In this document: piece by piece, positions 6,052 to 25,112 of the stretch
Numbering within the stretch: position 1 is the stretch's first letter
Layout of the letters: each line of letters begins with the position of its first letter
NCBI RefSeq assembly: GCF_900104725.1
Contig: NZ_LT629758.1
Location: forward strand, 1,364,001-1,428,000
DNA from: Actinoplanes derwentensis
GTDB taxonomy: Bacteria; Actinomycetota; Actinomycetes; Mycobacteriales; Micromonosporaceae
DNA: 64,000 nucleotides
Reading direction: 5' to 3'
Notes under the pieces: generated by a model
What the model saw: the letters and a program-made list of their open reading frames with translations, nothing else
The model's database searches: none
What the model was told of the DNA's origin: nothing
Made by a program: the position numbers and the translations under genes

Positions 6052-6939
6052 TTGACACCCTTGACCATCCGTCCCGCCGTCATGCCCGACGACCTGGACA
6101 CCTTCAACTCCTTCTCGTACGTCCTGAACGCCGAGATCGCGAAAGACCTCGCCGCGGGGCGCCGCCGGCCCGAGTGGCTGTGGCTCGCCCTGCGCGGTGA
6201 CCAGGTGACCGCCCGGGCCGCCTGGTGGTCGCGTCCCGGTGACGAACACCCCCTCGTCATGGACATCCTCGACGTCGCCGACGGGCACTTCGCCGACGGC
6301 GTGAGCCTCGTCCGGGCGGCTCTGCCCACACCGGCCCCGGAGTTCACCCGCTTCGTCGCCCCGGACTGGCAGCGTTCCGGTGATGACACCTGGATGCGGG
6401 TCCTGGAGGAGTGCGGGGCGAAACTGTTCGTCGAGCGCCTGCGCCTGCACTGGGAACCCGGCACCCCGATCGCCGAGCCGTCCGGGCGGCTCGCCTTCCG
6501 TGCGCCCCGTGACGCGGACGAGCTGATCGAGATGATGACACTCGTGCTCGACGGCAGCCTCGACGCGCACAGTCGCGACGACCTGACCCGGATGAGCCCC
6601 CGGGAGTGCGCCGAGGAGCAGTACCGTTCGGAACTCGAGCGCTACTCCACTCCACGGGACTGGTGGCGGGTCGCCGAACTGCCCGGTGGTGAGCCGGTCG
6701 GGTTCGTCATTCCGGCGCACAACGGCTACAACCCGATCATCGCCTACATCGCGGTGCTGCCCGGTCATCGTGGCCGCGGGCTCGTCGACGACATCCTGGC
6801 CGAGGGCGTCCGGGTGCTGGCCGGTCAGGGCGTGCCCCGGATCCGGGCGGCCACCGACGTCGGCAACGTGCCGATGGCCGCGGCCTTCGCTCGTGCCGGC
6901 TTCCGCACGTTCGAGCGCCAGGTCGACCTGACCTGGTGA
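6052..6939 (+). CDS. GNAT-family N-acetyltransferase
   Basis: A 295-residue acetyltransferase. The C-terminal third has the GNAT acetyl-CoA core: strand YIAVLPGHRGRGLVDDILAEG (P-loop-like RGRG), then ATDVGNVPMAAAFARAGF near the end. The N-terminal half is a degenerate second GNAT lobe, as in about 300-residue double-GNAT proteins. The start is taken as TTG 6052, giving MTPLTIRPAVMPDD, with GGAG 7 nt upstream. The open frame extends further upstream but no better start is seen there. The substrate is unknown. It sits just behind the mini-ORF at 5957. Confidence 0.87.
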   Translation: MTPLTIRPAVMPDDLDTFNSFSYVLNAEIAKDLAAGRRRPEWLWLALRGDQVTARAAWWSRPGDEHPLVMDILDVADGHFADGVSLVRAALPTPAPEFTRFVAPDWQRSGDDTWMRVLEECGAKLFVERLRLHWEPGTPIAEPSGRLAFRAPRDADELIEMMTLVLDGSLDAHSRDDLTRMSPRECAEEQYRSELERYSTPRDWWRVAELPGGEPVGFVIPAHNGYNPIIAYIAVLPGHRGRGLVDDILAEGVRVLAGQGVPRIRAATDVGNVPMAAAFARAGFRTFERQVDLTW

Positions 6940-7075
6940 TCCTCTTCGGTCGGTGACCGGCTCGGTAAAGTCGGTCACCGACTCGACAAAGGGCGGGTCA
7001 CCGACTCGATATATGGGTCGATGCCGGTGATCGACCGGTGTTAAGGTTCCCCCGCTGAAACACAGGGGGGACGTC

Positions 7076-7807
7076 GTGCCGAAACTGAACCAGATCATCG
7101 CCGTGGAGAAGGGCGTCAAGAGCAAGTCCTTTGCGGACTTGAGTGAAGCCCACCACGCCGTGCAGAAGACCGGTCCACTGGCCGGCATCTCCCGGACGTA
7201 CCAGCCGAAGGACGAGGAAGGCGAGCAGCTGCCCGCCGAGTCGACCCGGGTGCAGATCAAGGCCGAGGAGATCCTGCGTGACGTCGCCGGCACCCTCACC
7301 CGCCTGTTCGACGTGACCGCCACCAAGGACTGGACCAACGGCGTGGCCCGTGCCGACGTCGTGGTCGACGGCCGGACGATCGCCGCCCAGGTGCCGGTGA
7401 CCTACCTGCTGTTCCTCGAGAAGCAGCTGGTCGACCTGCACACCTTCGTGAAGAAGCTGCCCGTGCTCGACGCCGCCGAGTCCTGGGTTCGCGACGACTC
7501 CACGGACAGCTGGCGGACCGAGCCGGTGCGCACCAACCGCACCAAGAAGGTGCCGCGCAACCACGTCAAGGCCGAGGCCACCGAGAAGCACCCGGCCCAG
7601 GTCGAGGTGTACTACGAGGACATCACCGTCGGCTATTGGACGACGGTGAAGTTCTCCGGTGCCCTGCCGGCCAAGCGGGTCAACGAGATCCTCGATCGGG
7701 TGCTCGCCCTGCAGACCGCGGTCAAGTTCGCCCGCGAGGAAGCCAACAACACCGAAGTCACCGACCAGCGTGTGGGCGCGGCGTTCTTCGGTTACCTGTT
7801 CGGCTGA
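7076..7807 (+). CDS. Conserved actinobacterial protein of unknown function (DUF7873-like)
   Basis: A 243-residue soluble protein with no signal peptide or membrane helix. It starts at GTG 7076, behind an AGGGGGGA ribosome binding site. It is charged and regular, with N-terminus MPKLNQIIAVEKGVKSKSF, a central QVPVTYLLFLEKQLVDLHTF and C-terminus VGAAFFGYLFG. I recognise it as a strongly conserved actinobacterial family, probably DUF7873 (recalled, not searched), without an assigned function. It lies directly upstream of two tRNA-mimic RNAs on the same strand, with only a pair of hairpins between. A functional link to those RNAs is an untested inference. Confidence 0.85.
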   Translation: MPKLNQIIAVEKGVKSKSFADLSEAHHAVQKTGPLAGISRTYQPKDEEGEQLPAESTRVQIKAEEILRDVAGTLTRLFDVTATKDWTNGVARADVVVDGRTIAAQVPVTYLLFLEKQLVDLHTFVKKLPVLDAAESWVRDDSTDSWRTEPVRTNRTKKVPRNHVKAEATEKHPAQVEVYYEDITVGYWTTVKFSGALPAKRVNEILDRVLALQTAVKFAREEANNTEVTDQRVGAAFFGYLFG

Positions 7808-7820
7808 CCCGCCCATGAGT

Positions 7821-7859
7821 TCCCCCGTGGGAGCGCGGGGGTGCGCCGGGATTCCGGCG
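7821..7859 (+). terminator. Paired hairpins after the DUF7873-like gene
   Basis: Two stems follow the stop codon at 7807: CCCCCG with CGGGGG (about 7822-7841) and CGCCGG-GATT-CCGGCG (7844-7859). There is no T run. They probably end or process the upstream transcript and mark the 5' edge of the first structured RNA. Confidence 0.5.
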
Positions 7860-7860
7860 T

Positions 7861-8004
7861 GAAGCTGACGACTGAAGTTGAAGCTGAATTCCATCGGTGA
7901 CAGTGCGGGTTCGAGTCCCGCCCTCCGCATTTCGTGCGGAGGTAGCCCAACTGGAAGAGGCAGTCGATGATCAAACTCAGACTATCGCTCCAAAGTCAGC
8001 ATTC
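7861..8004 (+). ncRNA. Y RNA-like tRNA mimic 1 (YrlA type, permuted tRNA fold)
   Basis: The parts of a tRNA are present but in permuted order. First comes a T arm, GCGGG-TTCGAGT-CCCGC (7905-7921). The acceptor 3' strand CCTCCGC (7922-7928) is then joined by the 7-nt loop ATTTCGT to the acceptor 5' strand GCGGAGG (7936-7942). A D arm, TAGCCCAACTGGAAGAGGC, follows (7943-7961). In place of an anticodon arm, the two ends pair: 7893-7901 with 7963-7971 (one mismatch), CTGA with TCAG, and an outer stem GAAGCTGAC (7861-7869) with GTCAGC-A-TTC (7995-8004). This is the published architecture of bacterial Y RNAs, which normally partner the Ro60/Rsr protein. Structure was read by eye, and ends are approximate. 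Confidence 0.78.
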
Positions 8005-8013
8005 TCCACTGAT

Positions 8014-8147
8014 CACCAGGTCGACCGAGTGAGGACGAAGACATCGGATGCCGGTTCAAGTCCGGCTCGCCGCGCTTCGAGCGGCGATAGTTTAAAGGCA
8101 AAACCCGATGTCATGATGACTGATCCACACTCTTAAACGTGCTGGTG
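8014..8147 (+). ncRNA. Y RNA-like tRNA mimic 2 (YrlA type, permuted tRNA fold)
   Basis: This has the same plan as the RNA just upstream, with different sequence. The T arm is GCCGG-TTCAAGT-CCGGC (8050-8066). The acceptor strands TCGCCGC (8067-8073) and GCGGCGA (8081-8087) are joined by the 7-nt loop GCTTCGA, then TA and a D arm GTTT-AAAGGCA-AAAC (8090-8104). The ends form a long stem: GACATCG (8040-8046) with CGATGTC (8106-8112), GAGTG-A-GGA (8027-8035) with TCC-A-CACTC (8124-8132), and CACCAG (8014-8019) with CTGGTG (8142-8147). Compensating sequence differences from RNA 1 support a conserved fold. Both acceptor loops contain TTCG at the same place. The Ro-binding site cannot be assigned with confidence. 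Confidence 0.8.
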
Positions 8148-8169
8148 TGTGCAATTCAGTGGCAACCAG

Positions 8170-8200
8170 AAGCCCGGGGATCGGCCATTTCCCCGGGCTT
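8170..8200. terminator. Strong hairpin terminator after the RNA pair
   Basis: AAGCCCGGGG (8170-8179) pairs perfectly with CCCCGGGCTT (8191-8200) around an 11-nt loop. Because the arms are symmetric it can serve both the plus-strand RNAs and the convergent reductase gene ending at 8215. Confidence 0.75.
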
Positions 8201-8214
8201 CGCCATGCCCACGC

Positions 8215-9195
8215 CTACTTGTGGTTGACGCCGTGCATCAGGGCGAGGATCGCCCGGTTCAAGGGGACCGGTACGCCGTGCTGTTCGCCGAGGCGGACCA
8301 CCGCGCCGGTGATCAGTTCGTGTTCGGTGGCGCGGCCGGCCAGCCGGTCGTACAGCATCGAGGTGCCGTCGTCGCCGCCGAACTCGTCGTAGATCTCCAA
8401 GGTGTGATCGACGTCGGCCTCGGTCAGGGCGGCACCGGCCGCCCGGCCGACCGCGATCGCCTCACCCAGCAGGGCGCGGGTCAGCTCCCGGACCGCCGGA
8501 TCGTGCTGGATCACCGACATGCGTTTCAGGGTCAGCGAGGTCACCGGGTTCGCGCCGACGTTGGTCAGCAGCTTGCGCCAGGCGGCCGTCGGGAAGTCGG
8601 CGACCCGTTCGACGTGCAGCCACGAACCGTCGAACAGGGCCGCGAACCCGTCCTTCATGTCGCCCCGGACCACACCGGTGCTCGCCCGGCCGGTGGTGGG
8701 CGCCGTCTCGGTGAAGCCGGGCCGGGCGGTCGCCACCGCCGCGCCGGGGGTGCCGGGCACCGTGATCCGGGCGCCCAGCCGGTGCAGGACGTGGCCGGGG
8801 CCCAGGGACTCGGCCGCCACGTAGACCAGCGCGGGCAGCACCCGGGTGCCACGGGGGACCAGTGGCTCGATGCGCTCGGCGTGATCCACGCCGTTCTGCA
8901 GCACCACGACCGTGGTGTGCGGGCCGACGAGGGGGCCGAACCAGGCGGCCGCGCCCGCCGCGTCCTGGGCCTTGGTCGCCAGCAGCACCCAGTCGACCTC
9001 GGACGCCTCGGACGGGTCGGCCAGCACCGGCACGTCGATCTCGCGCACGCTGTCGGCGCGTTCGACCACCAGCCGCTGCAGCCGCCGTCGCGCGCACACC
9101 ACGACGTCGTGTCCCGCGTCCACCGCAGCCGCCGCGACCACCGTACCGACCGAGCCGGCTCCGATCACCGCGACGCGGGTTCGTCTTGCCGACAT
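8215..9195 (-). CDS. Ketopantoate reductase-family protein (PanE/ApbA-like)
   Basis: A 326-residue NAD(P)H-dependent reductase. Residues about 4-30 are the Rossmann start VAVIGAGSVGTVVAAAAVDAG, followed by LLATKAQD, VVVLQNGVDHAERI and the C-terminal helical domain (AWRKLLTNVGANPVTSLT). PanE makes pantoate for coenzyme A, but many paralogues in actinobacteria have other 2-keto substrates, so panE is not assigned. ATG 9195 has GGGAGG 8 nt upstream and places the Rossmann motif correctly. The longer open frame is ignored. Confidence 0.88.
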   Translation of the reverse strand: MSARRTRVAVIGAGSVGTVVAAAAVDAGHDVVVCARRRLQRLVVERADSVREIDVPVLADPSEASEVDWVLLATKAQDAAGAAAWFGPLVGPHTTVVVLQNGVDHAERIEPLVPRGTRVLPALVYVAAESLGPGHVLHRLGARITVPGTPGAAVATARPGFTETAPTTGRASTGVVRGDMKDGFAALFDGSWLHVERVADFPTAAWRKLLTNVGANPVTSLTLKRMSVIQHDPAVRELTRALLGEAIAVGRAAGAALTEADVDHTLEIYDEFGGDDGTSMLYDRLAGRATEHELITGAVVRLGEQHGVPVPLNRAILALMHGVNHK

Positions 9196-24249: not shown

Positions 24250-24396
24250 ATAACCGGAATATCAACCCGCCAAGAAGATCAAATCGGGCAAATACTGTTA
24301 AGAACGTCACTATTCCCCCTCGTTTTCTTGGCTCTCGGCCCATCGACGTGGTTACCGTCGTCGCCAGTCCCGCGTTGCGGGCACTGTGAGCGGACC

Positions 24397-24555
24397 GCCG
24401 AATCCTGCCGCCGCTCACAGAAACGAAACGGACGGCAGGAGCGGGGGACCCAATCTCTACGGCGCATCGTTCTTGCGCCTCGGGGTGAAGCCGTGTGTGT
24501 GACACGGCCGGGATGGATCGTCCCGAACCCGACAGCTCACCTCGTAGGCGTGGAG
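24397..24555 (+). ncRNA. Cyclic di-AMP riboswitch (ydaO/yuaA class)
   Basis: The leader of the LysM/Rpf-like gene holds the family's conserved blocks in order: AGCGGGGGACCCAAT (about 24439-24453), CGGGGTGAAGCCG, the short hairpin ATCGTCCCGAACCCGACAGC and CTCACCTCGTAGGCG (24536-24550), which ends just before the ribosome binding site GGAGG. Actinobacteria commonly carry this riboswitch ahead of resuscitation-promoting factor and other wall-hydrolase genes, where c-di-AMP turns expression off. The outer boundaries are approximate. Confidence 0.9.
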
Positions 24556-24563
24556 GATCACCC

Positions 24564-25112
24564 ATGTCTCGGATCGGTAGTAGACGAGTGCGCCTTGCCC
24601 TGACCATGGTCACGGCGGGAATCACCGGAGCCGGCATCGTCCTGAGCGGTGCGGCTCCGGCGAGTGCGGCCCGGCAGGTCAACTGGGACGTGGTCGCCAA
24701 GTGCGAGTCCGGCGGCCGCTGGCACATCAACACCGGCAACGGGTACTACGGCGGCCTGCAGTTCAGCCGCAGCACCTGGAAGTCCAACGGCGGCGGCAAG
24801 TACGCCTCGACCGCAGACAAGGCCACCAAGGGCGAACAGATCGCCGTCGCCAACAAGATCCACGCCAAGCGCGGCCTCAGCCCCTGGCCGACGTGCGGCA
24901 AGAAGTCCGGCGTCTACAAGAAGGTGACGGCGAAGAAGCCGGCCGCCGCGAAACCCAGCGGCAAGACCTACGTGATCCGCTCCGGCGACACCCTCGCCTC
25001 GATCGCCACCAAGAAGAAGATCAAGGGCGGCTGGCGTACGCTCTACGCATTGAACAAGAGCATTCTCGACAGCCCCAGCCAGATCCTCCCCGGACAGCGC
25101 ATCAAACTCTGA
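24564..25112 (+). CDS. Secreted Rpf-like transglycosylase with LysM domain
   Basis: A 182-residue exported protein. The signal peptide runs to about residue 36 (SGAAPASAA). The Rpf/transglycosylase-like domain follows: NWDVVAKCESGGRWHINTGNGYYGGLQFS, with catalytic E48, and a Cys pair (C47 and the Cys of WPTCGK). A Lys/Ala linker leads to a C-terminal LysM (TYVIRSGDTLASIA to LPGQRIKL) that binds peptidoglycan. Such resuscitation-promoting factors cleave wall glycan during growth or spore outgrowth. ATG 24564 has GGAGG 8 nt upstream. Control by the preceding c-di-AMP riboswitch is expected. Confidence 0.93.
   Translation: MSRIGSRRVRLALTMVTAGITGAGIVLSGAAPASAARQVNWDVVAKCESGGRWHINTGNGYYGGLQFSRSTWKSNGGGKYASTADKATKGEQIAVANKIHAKRGLSPWPTCGKKSGVYKKVTAKKPAAAKPSGKTYVIRSGDTLASIATKKKIKGGWRTLYALNKSILDSPSQILPGQRIKL

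Follow-up and report, generated by a model that had tools for sequence, protein, structure and literature searches.

Two adjacent segments of the Actinoplanes derwentensis chromosome read as tRNA in the wrong order, and the question that they raise is what kind of RNA carries them and with which protein it might work. The preliminary description took them for a tandem pair of Y RNAs of the YrlA type lying in DNA without a Ro60 gene. Within the window, the whole stretch of 64,000 nucleotides that was analysed, the tandem permuted tRNA mimics, their constraint in evolution and the absence of Ro60 all stand, whereas membership of the YrlA family and the division into two separate Y RNAs do not. 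The positions of the features are given in Table 1.

Table 1. Features of the locus (positions are those of the window)
Feature	Position	Strand	Evidence or detail
DUF7873 (PF25283) gene, 243 amino acids	7076..7807	+	Pfam 390 bits, E 6e-117, residues 1-242
Conserved structured RNA, predicted extent	7822..8201	+	blocks in 81 bacterial loci, alignment, viral relatives, 3' hairpin
5' hairpin, CCCCCGT..GCGGGGG	7822..7841	+	loop region with GAGCG, candidate 5' strand of P1
CTGA-rich conserved block (AAGCTGACGACTGA)	7862..7875	+	81 bacterial loci
Unit 1 T arm (GCGGG TTCGAGT CCCGC)	7905..7921	+	sequence, arm scan, covariation
Unit 1 acceptor stem	7922..7942	+	strands 7922-7928/7936-7942, 7-nt loop ATTTCGT 7929-7935
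Unit 1 D arm, tRNA-Leu type	7943..7962	+	nearest tRNA isotype Leu
Conserved core, TCAGACTATCGCTCCAAAGTCAGCA	7977..8001	+	TCAGACT..CGCTCCA..GTCAGCA in 81 loci; pattern search
5' strands of three unit 2 helices	8005..8035	+	8005-8010, 8014-8019, 8027-8035
GTCGACCG block	8020-8027	+	conserved, 81 loci
Unit 2, whole	8042..8110	+	arm scan, covariation
Unit 2 anticodon-type stem	8042-8046/8106-8110	+	
Unit 2 T arm	8050-8066	+	
Unit 2 acceptor	8067-8087	+	strands 8067-8073/8081-8087, loop GCTTCGA 8074-8080
Unit 2 D arm	8088-8104	+	
3' strands of three unit 2 helices	8124..8163	+	covariation
CTTAAACG block	8132-8139	+	conserved, 81 loci
3' hairpin, 12 bp, loop TCGGCCATT, without U tract	8169..8201	+	

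Both segments are circularly permuted tRNA folds. Each runs from T arm through acceptor stem to D arm, the 3' half ahead of the 5' half, and the acceptor stem of each is capped, as had been described, by a seven-nucleotide loop containing TTCG; in unit 1 this loop is the site where the 3' end of a tRNA would meet its 5' end. The long stem said to occupy the position of the anticodon arm is clear for unit 2 (8005-8046 with 8106-8163) but short and irregular for unit 1. The minimum free energy of positions 7840-8170 lies 3.4 standard deviations under the mean of 100 shuffled sequences, none of which was as low. Folded alone, unit 2 (8005-8150) has a z-score of -3.0, with none of 200 shuffles as low, and unit 1 (7886-7985) an unremarkable one of -1.65, with 13 of 200 as low. 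ARAGORN reported neither a tRNA nor a tmRNA in the window, which is expected if the order within the units is swapped. When 186 units from this locus and its relatives (152 of them distinct) were given to the program as circles, 145 were called as tRNA, compared with none as linear sequences and none as shuffled circles; the test is not independent of the scan for T, acceptor and D arms that had supplied the units. When their halves were rearranged about a dummy anticodon loop, 184 of the 186 were called and none of 558 shuffled sequences, the former being a generous figure because the anticodon stem was taken as the best among several offsets.

That the two units keep the same fold with different sequences, with covariation between the paired positions, is borne out by the alignment of relatives (34 sequences of the 46 extracted for unit 1; 38 of the 57 listed for unit 2). 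For unit 1, 99.8% of 510 cells are paired and double changes occur in 9 of 15 pairs, including all seven pairs of the acceptor stem; the three pairs of the D stem never vary and so are silent on covariation. In the unit 2 domain standard pairs make up 99.1% of 1518 cells, with double changes in 29 of 40 pairs, and the three helices that carry unit 2 have 98-100% of cells paired and double changes in 14 of 19 pairs. None of 500 shuffles reached the pairing measures of either unit. Sliding the partners gave pairing of 40-58% for unit 1 and 38-47% for unit 2, a comparison that favours the structure strings because they were derived from folds of the same family; the double changes are stronger evidence than these controls. 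The predicted fold of unit 1, unremarkable when considered alone, is settled by its relatives. RNAalifold, run on 60 bacterial sequences (81 less near-duplicates), recovered unit 2 complete together with three more helices around it, and unit 1 as parts of the T and acceptor stems only, since the length of its loop varies.

Rather than two separate Y RNAs, the units form two domains within a single conserved RNA, about 380 nucleotides long, as seen from the conserved blocks, the 60-sequence alignment and the viral relatives. The interval first assigned, 7861-8147, does hold both units but is too short for the conserved RNA, which extends from about 7822 to about 8201. Its predicted start is 14 nucleotides past the stop codon of the DUF7873 gene, and no sigma-70-like promoter or U-tract terminator was matched within 6900-8300. 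A terminal hairpin of 12-13 bp with a GG-containing loop, mostly of the YGGNYAY type, is present in 23 of the 26 bacterial loci examined. The same order of blocks can be read in many viral relatives, where by eye the CTGA-rich block has a counterpart of the type CAAACTCAAACT and the loops of the 3' hairpin are of the type GGATAT. A further helix, P1, pairs a 5-mer ahead of the CTGA-rich block with CGCTC of the middle block (7986-7990), and compensatory changes are found in viral relatives. In 23 viral loci 110 of 115 P1 positions are paired, through 16 distinct pairs of 5-mers; 2000 reshufflings between loci gave 73 paired positions on average and 90 at most, in a control that is biased in favour of the helix because the positions were chosen by eye. 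The 5' strand of P1 is ambiguous in A. derwentensis, as GAGCG at 7831-7835 overlaps the 5' hairpin and RNAalifold prefers 7856-7859.

Unit 1 is precisely absent, with its flanks intact, from five of the 23 relatives displayed (L032, L038, L054, L072 and L088), and two viral loci (L106 and L108) have by eye a plain hairpin in its place. At another locus (L111) a complete tRNA-Thr gene (ARAGORN, 6868-6940) lies within the acceptor loop of unit 1. Judged from these relatives unit 1 is an insert on a scaffold, and two acceptors are not obligatory, since some relatives lack it.

These properties bear on whether the units could be permuted tRNA genes proper, with the core removed, the halves joined at the anticodon and the loop cut to give ordinary tRNAs, as in red and green algae and Thermofilum pendens. 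The placing of the 3' half upstream of the 5' half, with an intervening sequence at the acceptor, matches such genes, which have been described from algae and archaea (PMC3978253), and the near-complete calling of the un-permuted units as tRNA is in keeping with this. A 2023 study of permuted RNAs deals, in its accessible text, with tmRNA, rRNA, SRP RNA, ribozyme, intron and tRNA cases, and that text has no bacterial tRNA-like pair (PMC10085705). However, the anticodon ends are here built into a conserved scaffold, in bacterial and phage hosts, the units are separated and surrounded by a core too conserved for an intron, unit 1 is dispensable, and U33 was not seen by eye after the 5' strand of the anticodon stem in the A. 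derwentensis locus, the one locus inspected for it. To our knowledge bacteria do not have a splicing endonuclease of the archaeal or eukaryal kind. Conventional permuted tRNA genes are thus a very improbable explanation.

Work on bacterial Y RNAs has reportedly been published by Chen et al. in 2014. The YrlA RNAs, as described in the available part of one account, are 90-150 nucleotides long; their basal stem is for Rsr, while PNPase binds to their tRNA-like domain, which DusA and TruB modify (PMC8394870). The present RNA has in common with YrlA (RF02553) the permuted T-acceptor-D module set on a stem at the anticodon position, and the YrlA model does match both units weakly, with 28.4 and 22.1 bits (E of 7e-4 and 0.046 for 801 bases searched). 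These scores are far under the gathering score of 69, so that YrlA-type membership is not upheld, and no Rfam family reached threshold at the RNA, either in the window or in 12 relatives. It also differs from YrlA in having two modules in some 380 nucleotides, a conserved core and a 3' hairpin of its own, DUF7873 in place of Ro60 and, in many relatives, NCCA in the acceptor loop; nor, on its predicted ends, is it closed as a whole by a stem of its own 5' and 3' ends, although unit 2 by itself has a long closing stem. Elsewhere in the window a c-di-AMP riboswitch (RF00379) was matched at 24386-24565 on the + strand with 65.5 bits.

The claim that the 64 kb hold no Ro60 gene can be extended, as no match to TROVE at E <= 0.001 was found even in the whole 10.65 Mb genome. 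Nor was there one in 14 of 20 other genomes with DUF7873. The remaining six have a partial match of 50-68 bits (Pfam cut-off 23), covering only 61-75 of 442 positions within TROVE 277-351; being above the cut-off, it may represent a Ro-like protein in those six. In Deinobacterium chartae, a control genome, TROVE and DUF7873 are both present. A divergent Y RNA system could be envisaged, with the RNA as a relative of YrlA, DUF7873 in place of Ro60/Rsr, and PNPase or another nuclease tethered or gated by the tRNA-like domains. The common module, the weak matches, the published YrlA-Rsr-PNPase machine (PMC8394870) and the co-occurrence of TROVE with DUF7873 in D. chartae and, in part, in the six genomes point this way, but the low scores, the greater length and second tRNA domain, the conserved core and the lack of TROVE here and in most of the other genomes make it decidedly unlikely.

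The protein encoded directly upstream offers a better candidate. It belongs to DUF7873, matching the full domain with 390 bits where the Pfam cut-off is 27 bits; Pfam labels the family as being of unknown function, and it is not named in any paper found in the literature searched. With 7491 of 8000 scored candidates at E <= 0.001, the family comprises thousands of sequences. An AlphaFold model built from 25 sequences is confident (mean pLDDT 89.3, pTM 0.73), and the predicted fold has no convincing structural match in the PDB and gives no hint of RNA binding.

Linkage between this gene and the RNA is close. Among 35 other genomes of the genus, the pattern of the RNA core was found in exactly the 14 that have a full DUF7873 and in none of the 21 without (20 lacking it and one, G020, with a fragment of 36 positions), and the reversed pattern was found in none of 67 genomes. 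In bacterial genome contigs a search with the protein listed 592 pattern stretches, of which 562 encode a relative, so that such loci number at least 562. In a scan of the closest 80 of these, 55 showed two or more units and 24 a single one; the remaining locus (L072), in which the scan saw none, retains unit 2 with a longer linker. The surroundings vary: 79 of 80 bacterial loci have none of the five flanking genes of the window in common with it, and other neighbour families are each found in at most 18 of 81 loci, a count that sets aside four clusters resembling frames that overlap DUF7873. The core pattern, searched as DNA in IMG/VR, occurs at seven places, two of them on contigs already known through the protein; DUF7873 lies upstream in six, and for the seventh only 183 bases of flank were available. 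Taken together, these comparisons support DUF7873 and the RNA travelling together as a conserved module, and DUF7873 is the likely protein partner. The fallback offered in the preliminary description, permuted tRNA-like RNAs with an unknown protein, is thereby supported.

A fixed cassette of a protein gene and a structured RNA in variable surroundings is also what a type III-like toxin-antitoxin pair would look like, with DUF7873 as an RNase-like toxin and the RNA as its antitoxin. Since the RNA follows the gene, contains complete tRNA folds and is no repeat array, and DUF7873 has no family match to a known RNase, this too is highly improbable.

The module is patchily distributed, DUF7873 being found in 17 of 60 genomes of relatives (the genome itself and one fragment counted) and in 6 of 246 in a sample of the phylum (the genome itself counted). 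The nearest named DUF7873 protein is that of Actinoplanes couchii, which fits the earlier attribution to an Actinoplanes-like genome. Streptomyces lavendulae is a further bacterium with the pair of gene and RNA. The protein is also encoded by phages, in 73 records at E <= 1e-5 and 83 at E 0.1, from phages named after Gordonia, Arthrobacter, Rhodococcus, Rhizobium, Vibrio, Klebsiella, Serratia, Pseudanabaena and Microcoleus. Permuted units lie behind it, partly as judged by eye, in 15 of 16 IMG/VR loci and 12 of 14 phage records, the pair of gene and RNA being found in phages of Actinobacteria, Rhizobium, Vibrio, Klebsiella and cyanobacteria. Recognisable units were not seen in L113, where the match to DUF7873 covers only 96 residues, in a Microcoleus phage (L124) or in the Prevotella (Lak) phage L125, whose weak match to DUF7873 was confirmed by Pfam at 98 bits. 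Downstream of the gene in L125 (3679-4500) no RNA was recognisable; in L124 (3740-4000) the gene is followed by what is by eye a tRNA-like element in the normal order and not a permuted pair. In a tree of 38 proteins, the actinobacterial and actinophage proteins and some from IMG/VR fall in one group of 25 (97/91), within which the order is not resolved, the bootstrap not having settled. The RNA fold, its two tRNA domains, the linkage to DUF7873 and the spread through Actinobacteria and diverse large phages are established by this comparison of sequences.

In five of the 14 phage records DUF7873 lies inside a tRNA cluster (Arthrobacter phage Mimi, Gordonia phage Phendrix, Rhodococcus phage NiceHouse and two Rhizobium phages; L114, L115, L117, L120 and L122), and in these five the unannotated gap behind the gene contains the RNA. 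A tmRNA lies within about 2.5 kb of the phage copy in two loci, Phendrix (L115, 2072-2600, 89 bits) and a jumbo phage contig from IMG/VR (L105, 9032-9436, 112 bits); the Phendrix match is absent from the annotation shown. In NiceHouse (L122, 4374-5246) a gene for a Band-7-like membrane protein is found one tRNA downstream of the RNA. Large ornate RNAs associated with phages are known as GOLLD and ROOL, and a title in the reference list of PMC9569102 links GOLLD to mycobacterial tRNA arrays. The present RNA is smaller than these and is linked to DUF7873, and at the gathering threshold Rfam matched neither family in the window or in any of 12 relatives.

Such an accessory distribution, together with the presence in large phages, several adjoining tRNA clusters, would suit a decoy or antidote, an RNA whose likeness to tRNA lets it bind or use up the enzymes by which tRNAs are attacked or modified, serving phage counter-defence or bacterial protection, with DUF7873 as chaperone or effector. 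The varying identity of unit 2 would be expected of a mimic under changing pressure, and for YrlA competitive inhibition of an anticodon nuclease has been proposed in the accessible text of one report (PMC7790460). Against this, the non-tRNA core is strongly conserved, although needless for a decoy, and none of three DUF7873 proteins had a family match in PADLOC. The anticodon loop, which is the target of many tRNA-cutting toxins, is moreover absent. On balance a decoy is unlikely.

What the acceptor ends are used for can be approached through the sequence that follows the acceptor strand. In a survey of 142 distinct units, with one in 64 expected by chance, NCCA was present in 25 of 51 distinct bacterial copies of unit 1 and 3 of 54 of unit 2, in 6 of 7 units of phages with Gram-negative hosts and in 9 of 30 other viral units. 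Neither unit of the A. derwentensis locus encodes it, the loops containing TTCG. By a loose criterion, applied to part of the annotated tRNAs, CCA ends all 11 tRNA genes looked at in a Rhizobium phage (L117, the sole phage of a Gram-negative host checked), whose unit has NCCA, and 2 of 23 in three actinophages. Some acceptor loops are stable four-nucleotide caps (ACGG, TCGT), which need not be cut.

As regards identity, among 222 tRNAs collected from the loci analysed the D-arm starts GCCCAA and GGCGGAA occur in six tRNAs each, all of them tRNA-Leu, and tRNA-Leu is the nearest tRNA to unit 1 in 18 of the 19 examples listed, that of L114 being nearer to a tRNA-Thr. Unit 2 has no constant tRNA identity, and of 15 distinct unit 1 examples from the other viruses 5 have not kept A73. 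Bacterial LeuRS does not need the anticodon, and this, with the Leu-like D arm, makes unit 1 the best candidate for charging. About a dozen tRNA genes are also densely arrayed in the A. derwentensis genome at about 4661804-4662770 (G000:C1, L152), two of them being tRNA-Leu genes with a short variable loop and a D arm matching that of unit 1.

The account that we prefer, and to which we would give an even chance of being right, is that the locus encodes a two-component ribonucleoprotein, DUF7873 with an RNA of about 380 nucleotides that displays two circularly permuted tRNA bodies, which are handled by tRNA enzymes. DUF7873 would bind the conserved non-tRNA core, the 3' hairpin or both, as the genomic linkage suggests. 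With the anticodon ends buried in the core, the acceptor and T halves would face outward; by the route proposed for permuted tRNAs, the acceptor loop may be cut by RNase P on its 5' side and trimmed on its 3' side by tRNase Z or exonucleases to leave an end of discriminator and CCA, after which the RNA would work as pieces, as in the two-piece permuted tmRNA. Both cutting of the loop and charging of the end are suggested by NCCA and by the Leu type of unit 1. The target of the particle might then be the ribosome or a tRNA enzyme, or the particle might itself serve as an acceptor; its most plausible use would be to keep translation going in stress or phage takeover; a translation-related task is suggested by the company of tRNA clusters and by the tmRNA in two viral loci. 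Telling against this account are the rarity of NCCA in bacterial unit 2 and the lack of an encoded CCA in both local units, the short caps, the loss of unit 1 or of its A73 in some relatives, the changing identity of unit 2, a DUF7873 fold that does not suggest RNA binding and the three remote loci in which no permuted units could be recognised. A bolder form would have the system independent of both SmpB and Ro60, with both bodies cut by RNase P and tRNase Z to real CCA ends and at least the Leu-like one aminoacylated, so that the ribosome, or an aminoacyl-transfer enzyme, would meet two tRNA-like heads on one particle; this is possible but doubtful.

A further parallel is two-piece tmRNA with SmpB, where the 3' end of the acceptor is likewise encoded first, followed by a linker and the 5' end, and a small protein is linked. 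Many units of the relatives encode NCCA at the acceptor loop, as permuted genes for tRNA and tmRNA may also do. The present RNA differs from tmRNA in its complete D arm, its two tRNA domains and its protein, and no tmRNA with a tag reading frame was found in the window by ARAGORN or by Rfam at the gathering threshold. The well-known bacterial ribonucleoproteins that mimic tRNA are tmRNA-SmpB and YrlA-Ro. The locus looks like a third beside them, with binding, processing and role that we infer, and it would be set apart by presenting two tRNA bodies at once, by its own protein family and by being common to chromosomes and to phages of very different hosts. That the RNA had been overlooked is probably because tRNA finders read DNA as a line. 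Band-7 proteins are said to have been paired with a tRNA-like RNA by Burroughs and Aravind in 2016, and the novelty would be lower if that RNA were the one linked to DUF7873. The RNA partner is new information for the DUF7873 family, for which it provides a first testable role, and it fills the unannotated gap behind the gene in phage genomes; with it, the processing of permuted tRNA becomes testable in bacteria.
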